From assembly GCF_000341025.1 (NCBI RefSeq), contig NZ_ANBF01000044.1, positions 2,085 to 66,084 on the forward strand: a stretch of 64,000 bases of DNA, given 5' to 3'. This DNA is from Nocardiopsis salina YIM 90010. GTDB taxonomy: Bacteria > Actinomycetota > Actinomycetes > Streptosporangiales > Streptosporangiaceae. Shown here piece after piece: positions 16,711 through 54,355 of this stretch. The notes under the pieces are model-generated. The model had not been told where the DNA came from, searched no databases, and was given only the letters and a program-made list of their open reading frames with translations. The translations under genes and the position numbers were made by a program. The number at the start of each line of letters is the position of its first letter. Position 1 is the first letter of the stretch.

Positions 16711-19685
16711 CGACTCAGTGGAACCCTGCGGGGCACCAGGGCGAGCCCGGCGCGGACGGCAACGGCAACGGCAACGGGAAGGACGCGGGCGCCGGCACGG
16801 ACCGCGTGGCCCAGCACGGATCGGACGCGCAGTCTCCGGCGGCGGACCCGGATCCGGCCCCCGAGCGTGCCGATGCCGAACCCGACCCCGGCCCCTGGCG
16901 CGTGTACACGATGCCGGTGCCCGAGCACCCGGATCACAGTGGTGAGACGGGCACGGAGTCCGAGTCCGAGGAACCCGGCTACGACGGGATCACCGGCTAT
17001 CCGGCCCCTGCGGGTCCCGGTGGTCCGGGGGAGCAGCCACAGCCGCGTTCCACCGGCCGTCACGCACGTCCGGCGGGGCCGGGAGGAGGGCCCGGTCCCG
17101 AGAGCGGCGACGACGATCCCGACGGTCTCGCGGGTTGGGTCGGCAGTCTCACGGACGCTGCGGACGACGCCCGGATCGCGGGCCGGTCGACCGGGTCGTT
17201 CCCCGCGGTGTCCGGTCGCGATGCGGCCGCGGCACAGCCCGGGGCGGAGGACTCCTGGACCGAGACGGTTCGGCCCGAGGGCCGGTCCCGGTCCCGGTCC
17301 GGTTCGACCCCCGCGGAGGGGTCCTGGACCGAGACGGTCCGCCCCTGGGCGGCCCGCCCCGAGGACTCCGCCGCAAGAGCGGGCGGTGCCGGGCCGGCCG
17401 GGTCCACGGGCGCTGCTGGAACCGGGGCGATGTCCGGGACCGGCAGCTCCGACGGTGTGCACGAGGGGCCCTGGGTAACCGGGGGTGGGGATGCAGGGGC
17501 CACAGGCGTCACAGGAACCCCTGTTCCTTCGGACACTTCCGAGACCACGGGTGGGCAGGCCGCTGGGCGTCCGGACACCCCGGTCGCTGCGAACGGGGCC
17601 CACGAGACGACCGGACCCACTGGTGCCAACGGGACCGCGGAGCCCGCAGAACCCACCGGCGCGGCCGGCCGGGATGCCTCCGGTTCACTGGCCGCGGAGG
17701 GCGGACGGTCTTCGGGGGACTCAGCGGGTGACCTGCTCGCCGACGACCCCGATGGCTCCGACGGTGCCGCTGTGTCTGCAGCTTCCGCGGTCTCCGACGC
17801 GTCGGCGCAGGACTCGGGCGGCGCGGAGCGCGGTCCGGACGAGCCCGAGCCGTTGCCGCACCGCGTGCCGGGAACCTCGCCGATGTCGGGCGCCTTCCGG
17901 GCCGTGAGCCCCGACGACAGCGCCACCGGTGACCTCGAGAGCGCTTCTGACCCCGACGGCGATTCCGACGACCGCTCGGACGCCGGCTCCGACGAGCACG
18001 AGTACCGCCCGACCAACCACGACACCTGGCGCCCGGCCCGCACCTCCACCCGAGAGGAACTGGTCGAACGCCTGGACGCACTCGGCTCCCTGCACGAACT
18101 CGGCGAGGGCGAACTCCCCTCCCACGTGACCGAACGCTCGACCCAGCTCCTGGAGCACGCCGGTGCGCGCCTGAACCTGTCCGGCGACCACACCGTCGTC
18201 GCCCTGGCCGGTGGCACCGGCAGCGGCAAGTCCTCCCTGTTCAACGCCTTGTGCGGCCTGGAACTGTCGCAGACCGGCATCACCCGCCCCACCACCTCCA
18301 AGGCGCACGCCTGCGTGTGGGGGCACGAGGGCGCCGACGAACTCCTGGGCTGGCTGGGGGTCCCGGAGCGCTACCGCCACTCGCGCACGGGTGTGCTCGA
18401 CTCCGGCAACTCCGAGATGAACGGGTTGGTCCTGCTCGACCTGCCCGACCACGACTCGGTGCGCAGCATGCACACCGCCGAGGCCGACCGGCTCATCGGC
18501 TCCGTCGACCTGCTCGTGTGGGTCCTCGACCCGCAGAAGTACGCCGATGCCGCTGTCCACCATCGCTATCTGGCCAAGATGGCCGGGCACGGTGCGGTGA
18601 CCGTGGCCGTGCTCAACCAGGTCGACCGGGTCGGCAACGACGAGCTCGAGGAGCTGCTCACCGACCTGCGGCGCCTGCTGGAGAGCGAGTCGGGCGTGCA
18701 CCCGCGCATCGTCACCACCTCGACCACCATCGACCAGGGCGTGGACGATCTGCGCGATTTCCTGGTCGAGACCGTGCACGAGCGCCGCGCCCTGGTCGAC
18801 CGGCTCGACGCCGACCTCGACGTCGTCATCGGGGACTTCGAACCGTTCCGGGGCGAGGGGGAGATCCCCACGACCGTCTCCGCCGAAGTGCGATCCTCCC
18901 TGCAGAACGGGTTGTCGAACGCTGCTGGGGTCAGCGCGGTCGCCGACGTCACCGAGGCCAACGACGTGCGTCGCGGTCGACGCCGGGTCGGGTGGCCGGT
19001 GGCGCGCCGACTCGCAAAGCTGCGCAAGGATCCCCTGGCCGCGGTGCAGCTGGACTTCGTGCGCCGCGACACCGAGAACGGGGTGTCCGGCCGGGTCGAC
19101 GCGCACGAGGCCGAGCTGGAGAAGTCCCTGGTGGAGGCTGCCGACAGCGTCTCCGAGGGCATGCCGTCGATGTGGCGCCGACGTCTGCGCGCGGCGGCTC
19201 GTTCCGGCGTGGGGGAGCTGCCCACCGAGCTGGGTGAGACCGTCGACGCCGCGGTGCGCGGATCGGAGCGGACCCCCTCCTGGTGGGGCTTCGCACGGTT
19301 GGTGCAGTACGTGCTGCTGGGCGTTGCCGGCGTGGGCGCGGCCTGGGCACTGGTGTCGGCCGTGAGCTGGACGGGCGGTGGCATCACCGGCCTCCGGATG
19401 TTCGACGACCCGGTCTTCATCGCCTACTCGGGCGCGGTTGTGGCCGCCTCGCTGGTGGTCGGCTGGCTCACGGGGGTCGGTTGCGGGAACCTCGTGGAGG
19501 TCGCGGCCGTCCAGCGGCGGGAGGAGATCGAACGAACCGCGGACGCGAGCCTGCGCGAGACCGCAGGGGAACGTGTCGTGCGACCGTTGGAGGCCGAGCT
19601 GGAACGGTTCCGGTCCTTCCGCCGGGCCTACGAGACCGCGCGGGGGCCCGCCGGGGACGGTTCCGAGCACGCTTCCGGGGACTGA
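16707..19685 (+). CDS. Dynamin-like GTPase B with disordered head and membrane anchor
   Basis: A 992-aa protein. The first 430 residues or so are Gly/Pro/Asp/Ser/Thr-rich and look disordered. The G domain begins near residue 495 with GGTGSGKSS. It continues with TRPTTSKAH (switch I), LLDLPDHDS (G3) and LNQVD (G4, about residue 636). Two transmembrane segments near 865-885 and 910-930 are separated by a short loop (GGGITGLRMFDDP) and followed by an amphipathic tail. It overlaps GTPase A by four bases (ATGA), implying translational coupling. A membrane-anchored GTPase paired with a soluble one suggests membrane remodelling or septum work. Two terminator hairpins follow. Confidence 0.8.
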   Translation: MTTQWNPAGHQGEPGADGNGNGNGKDAGAGTDRVAQHGSDAQSPAADPDPAPERADAEPDPGPWRVYTMPVPEHPDHSGETGTESESEEPGYDGITGYPAPAGPGGPGEQPQPRSTGRHARPAGPGGGPGPESGDDDPDGLAGWVGSLTDAADDARIAGRSTGSFPAVSGRDAAAAQPGAEDSWTETVRPEGRSRSRSGSTPAEGSWTETVRPWAARPEDSAARAGGAGPAGSTGAAGTGAMSGTGSSDGVHEGPWVTGGGDAGATGVTGTPVPSDTSETTGGQAAGRPDTPVAANGAHETTGPTGANGTAEPAEPTGAAGRDASGSLAAEGGRSSGDSAGDLLADDPDGSDGAAVSAASAVSDASAQDSGGAERGPDEPEPLPHRVPGTSPMSGAFRAVSPDDSATGDLESASDPDGDSDDRSDAGSDEHEYRPTNHDTWRPARTSTREELVERLDALGSLHELGEGELPSHVTERSTQLLEHAGARLNLSGDHTVVALAGGTGSGKSSLFNALCGLELSQTGITRPTTSKAHACVWGHEGADELLGWLGVPERYRHSRTGVLDSGNSEMNGLVLLDLPDHDSVRSMHTAEADRLIGSVDLLVWVLDPQKYADAAVHHRYLAKMAGHGAVTVAVLNQVDRVGNDELEELLTDLRRLLESESGVHPRIVTTSTTIDQGVDDLRDFLVETVHERRALVDRLDADLDVVIGDFEPFRGEGEIPTTVSAEVRSSLQNGLSNAAGVSAVADVTEANDVRRGRRRVGWPVARRLAKLRKDPLAAVQLDFVRRDTENGVSGRVDAHEAELEKSLVEAADSVSEGMPSMWRRRLRAAARSGVGELPTELGETVDAAVRGSERTPSWWGFARLVQYVLLGVAGVGAAWALVSAVSWTGGGITGLRMFDDPVFIAYSGAVVAASLVVGWLTGVGCGNLVEVAAVQRREEIERTADASLRETAGERVVRPLEAELERFRSFRRAYETARGPAGDGSEHASGD
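17253..17338 (+). repeat. Short direct repeat encoding SWTETVRP twice
   Basis: The 17-mer TCCTGGACCGAGACGGT occurs at 17253-17269 and 17322-17338, encoding SWTETVRP twice inside the disordered head of GTPase B. A third, looser GPWVTGGG copy follows near 17470. These may be short linear binding motifs. Confidence 0.6.
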
Positions 19686-19781
19686 TCCGGGCAGCGGCCG
19701 GATGCGGCCCCATGCTGCCCGGACCCGAAACCGGGACCGAAGGCCCAGGCCCGGCCCGGATCCAGAGAATGCGATACACGA

Positions 19782-19808
19782 GAGCGCCCGGTGGCCGACC
19801 GGGCGCTC
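19782..19808. terminator. Perfect 11-bp hairpin after GTPase operon
   Basis: GAGCGCCCGGT (19782-19792) and ACCGGGCGCTC (19798-19808) form a perfect stem with a 5-base loop, without a T run. Confidence 0.65.
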
Positions 19809-19816
19809 GAACCGGC

Positions 19817-19860
19817 CCGGGGGCGGGCGGCACAGCGGATGCCGCCCGCCCCCGGTTTCT
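19817..19860 (+). terminator. Strong 16-bp hairpin terminator
   Basis: A perfect 16-bp stem (19817-19832 and 19840-19855) with a 7-base loop is followed by TTTCTT. It is the second of two tandem hairpins after the GTPase genes and should give tight termination. Confidence 0.75.
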
Positions 19861-20321
19861 TGCGCCGGTCCTCAGACCCAGGTCAGACCCTTGCTCATGA
19901 GCGTTCTCCGTGTCCGGTGGGGTGGGCACGTGCGGGGTCGGCCGACCGGTGAGTGACAGCCTTCCGGCTCCCCGGTCGGGCGTCCGTTCCACGCAGGATG
20001 CCCGAGTTCGCGGGCGATCCCAACCCCTTCCCCGGAGGAGCTGCCCGAGGAACCTTGCTCCTGCCTGCGCTGGCAGTACAATGAGCAATAAATGAATTAC
20101 TCAACGTAATGTAAAGTGGGTAGTGTGTGGTCGACAAGGATGCGGATGATGCTCTAGGGCGCGCAGGAGCAGAGGTGCCATGGGGGGTGGCGTTCCGGCA
20201 CTGCGGGGGGACTCAGTGCGATCACGTTCCGTCTGAAGGAGAACCTCTGGAGAGGGTCGGCCCATCACAGGGGTGAATGGGGCAGTCGACACGGAGTGAG
20301 TTCGGGAGGGAGGCGGGAGAC
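19861..20321. other. 460-bp intergenic region upstream of diguanylate cyclase
   Basis: No convincing full-length gene. It contains an AT-rich island (about 20076-20120) with a promoter and BldD-like box. On the minus strand there is an 8-codon open frame (19898 to 19872, MSKGLTWV) with a well-placed GGAG. The last 40 bases carry the purine-rich ribosome binding site of the downstream gene. Confidence 0.5.
20055..20110 (+). promoter_or_regulatory. Promoter with BldD-like box upstream of GGDEF gene
   Basis: A likely -10 TACAAT (20077-20082) lies 16 bases after TTGCTC (20055-20060), predicting initiation near 20089. The inverted repeat ATTACTCAACGTAAT (20096-20110) lies just downstream. It matches 9 of 10 fixed positions of the Streptomyces BldD consensus nTnACnC(A/T)GnGTnAn. 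This placement suits repression. The 5' leader to the GTG start would be about 230 bases. Confidence 0.6.
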
Positions 20322-22139
20322 GTGAGTATCTCGGAGCAACCGGCGGCGGAACGGGAACACGGTGAACGCCCCGGCTGGCCGATCCTGCAGCAACCCCCGG
20401 GGTTCGTGGTCTACCTGGGGCTGCTGGTGTGCGCCGTGCTGTTCCTCATCGGCGTGGCCGCGGCCCTGACAACACTCACCACATCGGACGTGGTCACCTT
20501 CGCCGCGCTCACCCTGTGCGCCGGTGTTTCCGTGGAAGGCGTGCGCCGCCTCGGACAGCCGCGCGGGCTCTCGCACGACCTGCTGGGGGCCTGGTGGTTC
20601 CCCGTGGTCGTGTTGCTGCCGCCGGTCTATGCCCTCCTCGTGCCGCTCCCGGTGTTCATGCTGCTGCAGTGCCGCGTTCGGCGCGCGTGGGTGCACCGGC
20701 GGGTGTTCAACGCGTGCTCGGTCGCGCTCTGCGGGTTCCTGGCCTCGGTGTTCTGGCACGGTGTACACGCGGGGGACCCGATCGCGGGGGTGGGCGGTTC
20801 CACCGGTTCGGCCGCCTCGCTCCTGACGGTCGGCGGGGTCCTGCTGGCGGTGCTGTGCTGCCTGGCCTTCACCGGGCTCAACACAGGGCTGGTCGCTGTC
20901 GCCGCCCGGATCAGCAACGGCCCCGAGCGGGTCCGGCGTACCAACGCCGACCGCGAGGCGGTCATGGTGGACGCCGTCGAATTATGTGTCGGGATCACCG
21001 TCGCCATCCTGGCCCAACTCTCGCTGCTGCTGCTGGTGATCGCTCTGCCGCCGATCCTTCTGTTGCAGCGGAGCCTGCAGTACCACCAGCTCCGGGCAGC
21101 GGCGCGCACCGATCCCAAGACCGGATTGCTCAACGCCCCCACGTGGGAACAGGCCGCCGTGAACGCGATCGCGCGTGCACGCAGCACGAGGGGGCGTGCA
21201 GCCGTGCTCATCATCGACATCGACCACTTCAAGCGGGTCAACGACAGCCACGGACATCTCTTCGGCGACCAGGTGCTGCTCGGGGTCGCCACCACCGTCG
21301 CCCAACAGCTGCGCCAGTCCGACCTGCTCGGAAGGTTCGGCGGGGAAGAGTTCGTGGTCCTGCTGCCCGGGGCTGACGTCGGTGAGGCTTCCCGGGCCGC
21401 CGAGCGCCTGCGCGCCCGCGTCGGCGGGATGGAGATCGCCGTGGACGATGTACCCGTGGCGATCACCGTCTCGGTCGGCCTGGCGGTCACGGGGGAGCAC
21501 GGGAACGACCTCGTGGAGTTGCTGACCGCTGCCGACCTGGCGCTTTACCGCGCGAAGGAGACCGGGCGCAACCGGGTGTGCCTGCCTGCCGGGCGGTCCG
21601 GGCCCGGCGCGGATGCCGTGGGTGAACCCGAGGGCACGGGCGATCCCGGTCCTGTGGACGGTCGTGGATCCGACGACGTGGACGCCTCTGCCGACAACCC
21701 TGCTCCTGTGGAGATACGCGGGGTGCAGAGCTGCCCCGCAGGGTGCGGAGGGCAGCTGCCCGGTCGGCCGGGGAACGCCTCTCCTGAGGAGGGGCTCGCT
21801 CCGGCGTCGCACTGGGATCCCGGGTACGGCGCATCGGTGCACCGTGCGGCGGAGCACCCGTGTTCGGTCGGGCGGATTCCTGGGCCACGTGAGGGCGGTG
21901 TGCCCGAGTCGGTCGTTGCCGACGCTGGGGCGTCGACGCATTCCGTGACGGCTGATCCGCATTCGCCCGTCCCGGTCGGGGAGTGCGCAGATCCCCCCGT
22001 GTCCAGAGCGTCCACGGCATCAGGGGGGTCGGAACCGTCGGTTGGGGATCCCGCCGGCGATGCCCCGGACCCGCGGGCATCGCCGGCAGAACCGCCCGGA
22101 AGCCCTTCTGGAGGTGCCTCCGGGGTCCAGGTCCCCTGA
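20322..22139 (+). CDS. Membrane diguanylate cyclase (GGDEF) with disordered tail
   Basis: A 605-aa c-di-GMP synthase. Five or six transmembrane helices (about residues 25-260) form a putative MASE-like sensor. A GGDEF domain follows (about 265-425) with DIDHFKRVNDSHGHLFGDQ and the intact active site GGEEF (about residue 340). The RQSD inhibitory I-site lies five residues before GGEEF, so product inhibition is likely. There is no EAL domain. About 180 residues after the domain are Gly/Pro/Ser-rich and probably disordered. The GTG at 20322 was preferred to an ATG at 20277 because GGGAGG..GGGAGA lies directly before it. A BldD-like box at the promoter suggests feedback by the c-di-GMP-binding regulator BldD. 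Confidence 0.9.
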   Translation: MSISEQPAAEREHGERPGWPILQQPPGFVVYLGLLVCAVLFLIGVAAALTTLTTSDVVTFAALTLCAGVSVEGVRRLGQPRGLSHDLLGAWWFPVVVLLPPVYALLVPLPVFMLLQCRVRRAWVHRRVFNACSVALCGFLASVFWHGVHAGDPIAGVGGSTGSAASLLTVGGVLLAVLCCLAFTGLNTGLVAVAARISNGPERVRRTNADREAVMVDAVELCVGITVAILAQLSLLLLVIALPPILLLQRSLQYHQLRAAARTDPKTGLLNAPTWEQAAVNAIARARSTRGRAAVLIIDIDHFKRVNDSHGHLFGDQVLLGVATTVAQQLRQSDLLGRFGGEEFVVLLPGADVGEASRAAERLRARVGGMEIAVDDVPVAITVSVGLAVTGEHGNDLVELLTAADLALYRAKETGRNRVCLPAGRSGPGADAVGEPEGTGDPGPVDGRGSDDVDASADNPAPVEIRGVQSCPAGCGGQLPGRPGNASPEEGLAPASHWDPGYGASVHRAAEHPCSVGRIPGPREGGVPESVVADAGASTHSVTADPHSPVPVGECADPPVSRASTASGGSEPSVGDPAGDAPDPRASPAEPPGSPSGGASGVQVP

Positions 22140-22337
22140 CCGGGAGCACACCGACCGGGTCGTCACTGTCGCCCCGGAGCACCTGCGGGAGTTCCGGGGC
22201 GACAGAGGGCCGGACCCGGTCGGACCGGTGGCACCGGGCGGGCTTCCTCTCGCAGAGGGCCGGACTGCCGACCAGCGTTGTCCACAGGCCGTGGGAACGC
22301 CATTGCGGGGCGAATCGGCGTCACTCACCGTGAGGTC

Positions 22338-23615
22338 ATGGCCTCACATCACATTCCTCACCCGAGCGATCCCGACGACCACTCCGACCGCGACCCCGAG
22401 CGCCACGAGCGTGAGCGTCATGTCGAACATGAGCCCGAGTACGGGCAGGCCGACCGGGCCCATGGTGAACCGATCACCGGTTCCACCGACAGCGGACCGA
22501 TCGGTACGGGTCGCCCCAACGGGACCCCGCCCGAGCGCATCAGCCTGTCCTCGCCCAACGACGTCGTGGCGACCATGCCCTACCTGGTGGGGGAGCCGCC
22601 CGTACCCGGCCTGGTGGTACTCACCCTGTGCGGCAGGAGCGTGCGCTCGGTCCTGTGCCGCGATCTCGGGCGCACCGAGGCCGCCGATCCGCTCGCCTGT
22701 GCGGGACCGCCCGTGGACAGCGCGGTCACCGAAGGGGCGGATGCCGTCATCGTGGTCGGGTACGGAACCGCGGACCAGGTCTCCGGGCATGTGGGAGGTC
22801 TTGCCACGTCGGCCAGGAGGAGGGGCCTCAAGGTCCTGGAGGCCTTCAGGGTGCACGCCGGGCGGTACTGGTCGCAGTTGTGTGTGCGTCCCGGATGCTG
22901 CCCGCCGGAGGGGAGCGGGCTCGACGCCGACCGTTCCACCGGGCCCGCCGAGGCGGTGTTGCGCGGGCTGACGCCGCGTCCGCCGTTGCGCACCGTCATG
23001 GACGAGATCGCGCGGGCACGCCGGACCCTGGACCCGCCCGGGTCGCTCAGGGCCGAGACGGTCCGGGCGGCGCTCGTCGGTGCGGAGGCCGAGGCCGAGC
23101 GCCTGCTCCGGGCGGGAGAGCGGGTTCTGCGGCGGTGCGGAGCGGCGGTCCTGCGATCCGCCGTGGAGGCCGAACGCACCGGAGCAGGGCCCCACGGGGT
23201 GGAGGAGTTGGTCCGGCTCGCTGTGTTCCTGCGGGCACGTCCGGTGCGGGACACCGTCTGGGCGACGATCACCCCCGAGACCGCACGTACTCACCTGGAC
23301 CTGTGGTCGCGCGTCACCCGGGCGTCCCTACCGCCCGACCACGGCGGTCGCGACCACGGCGCCGATGCGGCGTTCGTCCCCGCCGCCGACCGCGCCGCCC
23401 CGGTCCGACACGCACGTACCGACCGTGCCGCGCCTGCCGCGCTGGTCGCCGTCGCGGCCTGGCAACTCGAGGAGCTCGTCCTGGCCCGGGCGGCGTTGGA
23501 GACCTCCTTGGAAGCGGATCCGCAGTACTCCATGGCGCTGTTGATGCAGCAGGCCCTCGACGTGGGGTTGCCCGCGGAGCGGTGGATCGACCACCTCCAC
23601 GACCGCTCCGGTTGA
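22338..23615 (+). CDS. DUF4192 domain protein
   Basis: A 425-aa protein of the actinobacterial DUF4192 family. The recognisable part starts near residue 75 with SPNDVVATMPYLVGEPPVPG and continues with VVLTLCG, a VIVVGYG strand and a C-terminal helical region ending WQLEELVLARAALETSLEAD followed by PQYSMALLMQQALD. The first 70 residues are His/Asp/Glu-rich. The start is uncertain: ATG at 22338 is the best in-frame choice, with GAGG very close, and a TTG at 22278 would add 20 residues. No catalytic motif or signal peptide is seen. Function is unknown; relatives are typically single chromosomal genes of actinomycetes. Confidence 0.75.
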   Translation: MASHHIPHPSDPDDHSDRDPERHERERHVEHEPEYGQADRAHGEPITGSTDSGPIGTGRPNGTPPERISLSSPNDVVATMPYLVGEPPVPGLVVLTLCGRSVRSVLCRDLGRTEAADPLACAGPPVDSAVTEGADAVIVVGYGTADQVSGHVGGLATSARRRGLKVLEAFRVHAGRYWSQLCVRPGCCPPEGSGLDADRSTGPAEAVLRGLTPRPPLRTVMDEIARARRTLDPPGSLRAETVRAALVGAEAEAERLLRAGERVLRRCGAAVLRSAVEAERTGAGPHGVEELVRLAVFLRARPVRDTVWATITPETARTHLDLWSRVTRASLPPDHGGRDHGADAAFVPAADRAAPVRHARTDRAAPAALVAVAAWQLEELVLARAALETSLEADPQYSMALLMQQALDVGLPAERWIDHLHDRSG

Positions 23616-32730: not shown

Positions 32731-34593
32731 CTACTTCTCGATCTGGCTCACGTCCCGCGCCGCACCGGTGTGGGCCGAGGTGGCCATCGCGGCGTAGGCG
32801 CGCAGAGCAGCCGTCACCGGGCGCTCGCGGTCGACCGGGCGGAACCGGCCCAGCTCCTTGAGCAGCCGCTCGCGCCGGGTGTCGAGTTCGTCCTCGGGCA
32901 CCTCCAGCACGATCCCCCTGTTCGGGATGTCGATGCTGACCGTGTCGCCGTCCTCCACGAGCGCGATATCGCCGCCCGCGGCCGCCTCGGGGGAGGCGTG
33001 CCCGATGGAGAGCCCGGAGGTCCCGCCGGAGAAACGGCCGTCGGTGATGAGCGCGCACGCCTTGCCCAGGCCGCGGCCCTTGAGGAAACTCGTCGGGTAC
33101 AGCATCTCCTGCATGCCCGGACCCCCCTTGGGGCCCTCGTAGCGGATCACCACGACGTCACCTGGCTCGATCTCCTTGCGCAGGATCCCGTCGACGGCGT
33201 CCTCCTGCGACTCGAAGACCTTCGCGGGCCCGGAGAAGGTCCACAGCTCCTCCTCCACACCGGCGGTCTTGACGATCGCGCCCTGCGGGGCGAGGTTGCC
33301 GAACAGCACAGCGAGCCCGCCGTCCTTGGTATAGGCGTGCTCGTAGGAGCGGATGCAGCCCTGCTCCCGGTCGGTGTCCAGGCTGTCCCACCGGGTGCTC
33401 TGGGAGTAGGCCTTGGTGGTGCGCCTGCCGCCCGGCGCGGCGTGGAACAGCTCGACCGCCTCGGGAAGCGGGGACTCGGCGGCGATGTCCCACTCCTCGA
33501 TGAACTCGCCGATGGTCTTGCCGTGCACCGTCGGCAAGCTGGTGTCGAGCAGGCCACCGCGGGCCAGTTCGCCGAGGATCCCGGGGATGCCGCCGGCCCG
33601 GTGCACGTCCTCGATGTGGTACTTCTCCGTGTTCGGCGCGACCTTGCACAGGCACGGGACCTTGCGCGAGACCTCGTCGATCTGCGGAAGCCCGTAGTCG
33701 ACGCCGGCCTCGGTGGCGGTGGCGAGCAGGTGCAGGATCGTGTTGGTCGAGCCGCCCATGGCCACGTCGAGCGCCATGGCGTTCTCGAAGGCCGCCGGGG
33801 TGGCGATCGACAGCGGCAGGACCGAGTCGTCGTCGTCCTGGTAGTAGCGGCGCGCGGCCTCCACGACGCGGTGTCCGGCCTGCTCGTACAGAGCGCGGCG
33901 GGCGGTGTGCGTGGCGAGCACGGTGCCGTTGCCCGGCAGCGCAAGACCCATCGCCTCGGTCAGGCAGTTCATGGAGTTGGCGGTGAACATGCCCGAGCAG
34001 GAACCACAGGTCGGGCACGCGTTCTCCTCCATCTCGTCGAGCTCCTCCTGGGAGACGCTCTCGTCGGCGGAGGCGATCATCGGATTGATGAGGTCGAGCT
34101 TCTTGACCTTGGTCGCGGTGCCGTCGACGACGGTGACCTTGCCGGCCTCCATGGGCCCACCGGAGACGAAGACGGTGGGGACGTTGAGGCGCATGGCGGC
34201 CAGCAGCATCCCGGGGGTGATCTTGTCGCAGTTGGAGACGCACACCAGGGCGTCGGCGCAGTGCGCATTGACCATGTATTCGAGGGAGTCTGCGATGAGC
34301 TCGCGGCTGGGCAGGGAGTAGAGCATGCCGCCGTGGCCCATGGCGATGCCGTCGTCCACGGCGATGGAGTTGAACTCGCGGGGCACGCCCCCTGCTTCGC
34401 GGATCGCGTTCGCCACCACCTCGGCGACCTCGCGCAGGTGCACGTGTCCGGGAACGAACTCGGTGAAGCTGTTGGCCACGGCCACGATGGGCTTGCCGAA
34501 GTCCTCGCGCTCCACACCGGTGGCGCGCATGAGGGCACGCGCGCCGGCCATGTTCCTGCCGTGGGTGACGGTGCGTGAGCGTAGGGCTGGCAT
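32731..34593 (-). CDS. ilvD: Dihydroxy-acid dehydratase
   Basis: A 620-aa Fe-S enzyme converting 2,3-dihydroxy-isovalerate and 2,3-dihydroxy-3-methylvalerate to the keto acids of valine and isoleucine. It begins [20 protein letters not shown] like family members. It has cluster cysteines in [10 protein letters not shown] and [10 protein letters not shown], and [12 protein letters not shown] and [13 protein letters not shown] further on. Length matches the E. coli-type enzyme. The ATG at 34593 was preferred over one at 34608 because GGGAG lies eight bases before it and because of the family start. A 7-bp inverted repeat upstream (34660-34697) may be an operator. No other ilv genes are in the window. 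Confidence 0.96.
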
Positions 34594-54159: not shown

Positions 54160-54355
54160 GCCGTCACCTGTTCTCGAAGCATCCGAGGGGCCCTCACGAC
54201 AGGTCAACGTACCCCTTCGAAGTGGGTATTCCGGTGCACGGGTCGGGCGAAACCGCCCCGAGGGTGCCCGGGATCACAACGGTGCGGGCCCGAACCGGAC
54301 ACTTGTTCCCTGCGTCCCAACTTCGGTACAGAGACTCTCCGGAAAGGAAGAGCCC

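Follow-up and report, generated by a model that had tools for sequence, protein, structure and literature searches.

The closest described systems are the Streptomyces diguanylate cyclase genes cdgA, cdgB, cdgC and cdgE, which are repressed by BldD and for which negative feedback has already been proposed in print (PMC8325347, PMC7374567). In Streptomyces, c-di-GMP strongly stimulates the binding of BldD to its box and is required for this binding to be effective, and BldD acts as a repressor; the c-di-GMP signature of the protein is RXD-X8-RXXD (PMC4151990). The published Streptomyces consensus of the box, nTnACnC(A/T)GnGTnAn, has nine specified positions (PMC7374567). Binding of BldD has also been observed by EMSA in S. 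ghanaensis at ssfg_02181, a gene of the cdgC type with TCTACGCTCCGTAAC as its main box (PMC7374567), and in S. coelicolor BldD targets its own gene (PMC4255298). A literature search by title and the start of the abstract, which covered few subscription papers, returned no report of BldD control of the cyclase gene described below, or of such control in its lineage.

The window, which is the whole stretch of DNA that was analysed (64,000 nucleotides), comes from Nocardiopsis salina YIM 90010. We consider, with a probability of roughly 0.8, that positions 20096-20110 are a predicted BldD-(c-di-GMP) operator repressing the gene of the only GGDEF enzyme in the genome that lacks an EAL domain. A feedback loop had been proposed for this locus by a first-pass annotation of the sequence. 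That reading gained support from the presence of bldD and the conservation of the dyad, while the consensus match lost its value as evidence and BldD control of diguanylate cyclases was already known in Streptomyces. The features of the locus are as follows.

20055..20060, + strand: possible -35 (TTGCTC), weak and as such not conserved in the genus (sequence, promoter scan, genus alignment)
20077..20091, + strand: conserved promoter element, TACAAT (possible -10) and then GAGCAATAA (column conservation)
20096..20110, no strand assigned: predicted BldD box 1, ATTACTCAACGTAAT (TTAC-TCAAC-GTAA; conservation, column and spacing tests)
20111..20117, + strand: GTAAAGT, directly 3' of box 1 (genus alignment)
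20322..22139, + strand: predicted diguanylate cyclase with a hydrophobic helical N-terminal region, a GGDEF domain and a low-complexity C-terminal tail
21312..21323, + strand: RQSD inhibitory I-site (sequence, relatives)
21339..21353, + strand: GGEEF active-site motif (sequence, relatives)

The cyclase and the BldD protein of the genome

The start codon of the cyclase was taken as GTG 20322 because the loci share a conserved peptide, VSI(S/P)E. Its GGDEF domain was identified by Pfam (1.7e-40) and by NCBIfam (TIGR00254, 2.2e-46), and the Pfam scan of the protein returned neither an EAL domain nor any domain besides GGDEF. The protein combines a GG(D/E)EF motif with the GGDEF fold, as a predicted cyclase should, and an RQSD sequence of the RxxD form stands five residues before GGEEF. 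Both motifs had been called intact on first inspection, and this was confirmed. They are also kept in relatives: GGEEF and R-x-x-D were present in 30 of the 30 loci read (27 RQSD, two RESD and one RQAD), and R331, D334 and GGEEF are invariant in a 28-sequence alignment. The N-terminal hydrophobic helical region is read, by eye and from the structure model, as a putative membrane region. In the model (mean pLDDT 80.1, pTM 0.59) this membrane region was not resolved; GGDEF-domain proteins were found among the 50 of 457 structure matches listed. The C-terminal tail (21621-22139) is long and of low complexity, and across the 30 loci the frame varies in length between 455 and 680 codons.

Three GGDEF proteins are encoded in the genome, and the box-1 cyclase is the only one without an EAL domain. 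The other two are fused to EAL and both keep GGDEF; when the cyclase was compared by BLASTP with one of them, a TM-GGDEF-EAL protein, only the GGDEF part was matched. Since the other two GGDEF proteins carry EAL, and no box was found for their genes from 800 nt before the open frame to 900 nt into it, the box-1 cyclase is probably the dedicated c-di-GMP synthase of the genome, although the other two, which keep GGDEF, may make c-di-GMP as well.

A search of the genome for BldD returned a single match at E<=0.001. The matched protein is 79% identical to the query, a sequence taken as S. coelicolor BldD, parts of which matched solved BldD-type entries. It carries the Pfam domain BldD-like_C (3.5e-38), and its RGD-X8-RQED sequence is intact and fits the RXD-X8-RXXD signature, so the box-bearing genome also holds a bldD orthologue with the c-di-GMP signature. 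The absence of bldD, which the first-pass annotation had named as fatal to its proposal, was therefore not what we found. Across the genus, bldD was present in all 37 genomes searched, with 96-100% identity.

The bldD promoter carries a box of its own. GTCACTGTCTGTAAY was found before bldD in all 30 Nocardiopsis loci read (30 of the 37 genomes), at 133 nt upstream of the gene in L001 (minus strand), and it adjoins a TTGACC and TASCGT pair recognised by eye. This conservation suggests that bldD may be autoregulated. Over the whole genome the strict BldD consensus occurs at 17 sites, against 5 for the backwards pattern. Fifteen of the 17 were read for neighbouring frames; at least five of these 15 lie inside coding frames (L049, L050, L057, L058, L062), and the neighbours of the 15 formed no clear developmental group. 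One strict site of the same genome (L061, site 1501) lies upstream of a frame that by eye resembles an ECF sigma factor.

Box 1 and its conservation

ATTACTCAACGTAAT is located 226 nt upstream of the GTG start of the cyclase at 20322, and the letters and coordinates first assigned to it were both exact. The accompanying claim of a match to 9 of 10 consensus bases was a miscount, because the consensus has nine specified positions and ATTACTCAACGTAAT fits eight (script score 8). The box thus falls short of the full Streptomyces consensus by a single miss, an A where G is expected beside the centre, and it fits TNAC(N)5GTNA. By itself the motif score is at chance level and is no evidence for BldD: the window contains 8 sites with at most one consensus mismatch, where shuffled sequence gives a mean of 6.39, and TNAC-N5-GTNA occurs 4 times against 6.22 expected. 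The exact letter version, WTNACYCAANGTNAW, occurs at two sites in the whole genome, box 1 and one other. The window has two further TNAC-N5-GTNA sites, one (34565-34579) close to where an ilvD-like frame begins and one (54193-54207) at the beginning of a nucleotidyltransferase-like frame (both names by eye). A chance origin of box 1 was rejected because the box is conserved; the motif score played no part.

The genus set consisted of 37 genomes including our own, and an orthologue of the cyclase was found in 36 of them. The remaining assembly (G017), which is 85% complete, was dropped as no orthologue was found; in another (G022) the orthologue is split into three pieces. The dyad is kept in 36 of the 36 orthologue-bearing genomes, own included, and RTTACYCAANGTRAK is present in each, 162-210 nt upstream of the point where the protein match begins. 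Nine named Nocardiopsis loci (L066-L074), kept out of this count, all carry the dyad as well. The record of L066 bears the title Glycomyces fuscus TRM 49117; at the cyclase locus it falls with Nocardiopsis, and it is perhaps misnamed. Of the 41 columns that span -19 to +21 relative to the dyad, 35 reach at least 0.8 in an ungapped register, and the flanks are not conserved. The 15-mer varies only at columns 0, 5, 9, 12 and 14, each of which the BldD consensus leaves as N. At column 8, where Streptomyces calls for G, every one of the 36 Nocardiopsis rows reads A.

Outside the genus, 28 named loci (L075-L102) were scanned over 600 nt, and 26 had a TNAC-N5-GTNA box. Conservation in related species, on which the earlier proposal had been made to depend, was thus observed both within Nocardiopsis and beyond it. 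The out-group boxes belong to two further letter classes in the same register as those of Nocardiopsis. GTTACAYATCGTKAG or a close variant occurs in Nonomuraea, [Actinomadura] parvosata, Planobispora, Planotetraspora and Spongiactinospora, and RTCACTGRCTGTAAT occurs in Streptomonospora mangrovi, N. halophila and N. chromatogenes; the latter is 1-3 letters apart from the GTCACTGTCTGTAAY that precedes bldD. The two loci without a box were L100 (a MAG, with a badly anchored row) and L101 (Streptosporangium, one arm lost), and both were kept in the column table, where they count against the box. L092 has a box and is absent from the table, its flank being too short for the anchor.

Weighted over four groups, one of which consists of G037 alone, conservation averages 0.95 at the six BldD columns against 0.60 at the other nine, and 3 of the 5005 possible choices of six columns score as well as the BldD columns. 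With the arms fixed, a spacing of 5 is observed in 62 of 65 upstream regions, while each of the spacings 2-4 and 6-9 is observed in 3-17. As the genus and out-group rows are mutually related, these counts are not independent, and the stronger argument is that there are three letter classes which agree with one another at the BldD columns alone. Of a further eleven upstream regions that are more distant (L037-L045, L047, L048), eight had no box and three had the pattern. The site of L038 matches the consensus at each of the nine bases (by eye), that of L045 sits in a repetitive stretch, and that of L037 (G037) is one letter off the consensus.

These data also bear on whether some other regulator reads a similar TNAC-N5-GTNA site, or a longer one, at the cyclase promoter. 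The conserved block of about 41 bp exceeds the width of a BldD box and runs past the 15-mer on both sides, and the centre of the Nocardiopsis box is CAA where the consensus has C(A/T)G, both of which would suit such a regulator. The preserved columns and spacing are nevertheless those of BldD, a near-identical box stands at the bldD promoter, and the genome search, which covered BldD-like proteins only, returned no second one at E<=0.001. We therefore regard another regulator as unlikely, and as the most serious of the alternatives to a BldD operator.

The letter classes weigh against an RNA hairpin formed by the dyad at the 5' end of the message. In Nocardiopsis, ATTAC and GTAAT could pair (four pairs in 36 of 36 rows, the fifth in 35 of 36), and pair 0-14 also holds in 3 of 3 Streptomonospora-type rows. 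Pair 2-12, however, fails in the same three rows, and the Streptosporangiaceae-type rows hold pair 2-12 in 6 of 22 and pair 0-14 in 1 of 22 (counts that omit L100, L101 and L092). The hairpin was rejected because its pairs break in other lineages while TNAC/GTNA persists, and no Rfam match was obtained at the gathering score; we hold it to be very improbable. A c-di-GMP riboswitch or other Rfam RNA in 19000-23000 was likewise rejected, with no match at the gathering score.

Promoter context and a possible second box

The promoter before the cyclase had been described as good, which was an overstatement: a sigma-70 scan of 19600-20500 found none, and TTGCTC-16-TACAAT agrees with 8 of 12 consensus letters (by eye). 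A WhiG-type promoter, looked for at the locus by eye, was not found either. The element at 20078-20091 has the genus and out-group consensus ACAnTnnGCRAYTA, and it is strongly kept beside the box in Nocardiopsis, Streptomonospora and Streptosporangiaceae, in a register with the boxes that is common to the out-group loci. Its columns -18, -17, -16, -11, -10, -8, -6 and -5 stand at 0.97 or above (group-weighted), and column -14 at 0.89. GTAAAGT (20111-20117) is kept throughout the genus and is absent as a conserved block from the out-group rows.

In 59 of 64 rows a TAnnnT sequence lies directly against the box. In our own clade (4 rows) it is lost, and the box instead lies 13 nt after TACAAT. 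In both arrangements the box likely overlaps or closely follows the probable transcription start, as repression would lead one to expect. The abutting ACAnTnnGCRAYTA and TAnnnT would also fit conservation of the core promoter only (-10 and start region) with an incidental likeness to a BldD box, which is hardly credible given that the box letters differ among lineages save at the BldD columns and that the GTNA arm lies 10-13 nt past TAnnnT.

TTCACGGTGCGTGAT was considered as a second box class upstream of some orthologues and was rejected, as ten of 30 loci proved to be sequence downstream of the gene. Scanning of those downstream sequences led to the discovery of box 2, which involves two further features.

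22320..22334, no strand assigned: possible BldD box 2, GTCACTCACCGTGAG, 3 nt before the probable DUF4192 start codon
22338..23615, + strand: DUF4192 gene with a probable ATG start at 22338 (Pfam 8.1e-51 on the longer frame 22278-23612)

By its own pattern, box 2 was found in 34 of 39 loci, including re-fetched genomes. Selection by its own pattern is circular, and the rows were therefore re-anchored on the DUF4192 start codon; TNAC-N5-GTNA was then kept in 23 of 28 congener rows. L009, L022 and L026 look mis-anchored. Two loci in which no DUF4192 anchor was found (L002, L003) carry box 2 by pattern. In box 2 conservation is 0.86-1.0 for the six BldD columns and 0.5-0.89 for the remaining nine. 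Because box 2 also overlaps a likely -10, its evidence is weaker than that of box 1, and we treat GTCACTCACCGTGAG as a lead, a possible second BldD box. The DUF4192 message may be leaderless.

Proposed feedback and comparison with Streptomyces

Given the c-di-GMP-stimulated binding and repression by BldD in Streptomyces, we infer transcriptional negative feedback at box 1, together with I-site inhibition. BldD binding, repression and the activity of the enzyme are predicted, whereas the conserved box, the conserved bldD with its signature and the intact GGEEF and RxxD motifs are observed. At high c-di-GMP, a c-di-GMP tetramer would join two BldD protomers, as in Streptomyces, and the resulting dimer would repress the cyclase gene by binding TNAC-N5-GTNA across the transcription start or immediately downstream of it. 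When c-di-GMP falls, BldD would be released and c-di-GMP synthesis would come back on. The RxxD I-site would provide a second, fast layer through product inhibition.

The conservation of box 1 suggests that actinomycetes other than Streptomyces have an old feedback loop of this kind. A broader proposal, which we advance tentatively and rate slightly below even odds, is that Nocardiopsis, Streptomonospora and Streptosporangiaceae share an old homeostat in which BldD-(c-di-GMP) exerts feedback on a dedicated membrane cyclase. This feedback would act on a cyclase gene unlike the BldD-controlled ones of Streptomyces, the logic of the loop being kept and the enzyme changed; Nocardiopsis BldD would also control the DUF4192 gene, and a second factor or sigma would read ACAnTnnGCRAYTA. 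If true, feedback on c-di-GMP synthesis would be a general feature of BldD, achieved via different enzymes and extending beyond Streptomyces. The Nocardiopsis lineage further differs from Streptomyces in that it is reported to lack WhiG (PMC4255298). If the feedback is real, c-di-GMP would set its own level via BldD in actinomycetes reported to be without WhiG, and BldD may be the main known c-di-GMP route there.

The locus resembles Streptomyces cdgA, cdgB, cdgC and cdgE in being a diguanylate cyclase gene with a BldD box, here predicted from sequence (PMC8325347, PMC7374567). It is nonetheless another gene, whose product joins a hydrophobic helical region to GGDEF with no EAL, and the S. venezuelae protein table lists no protein of this architecture (PMC6205966). 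The main box of ssfg_02181 is likewise without the consensus G beside the centre, and its first T is missing too (PMC7374567). The ssfg_02181 product differs in having nine TM helices, PAS, GGDEF and a degenerate EAL, and no box was found in the stretch scanned for C155, this genome's long tandem GGDEF-EAL protein, whereas ssfg_02181 is boxed. As with the autoregulated bldD of S. coelicolor, Nocardiopsis bldD has a box upstream; it belongs to a different gene from box 1 and carries other letters at the N positions.
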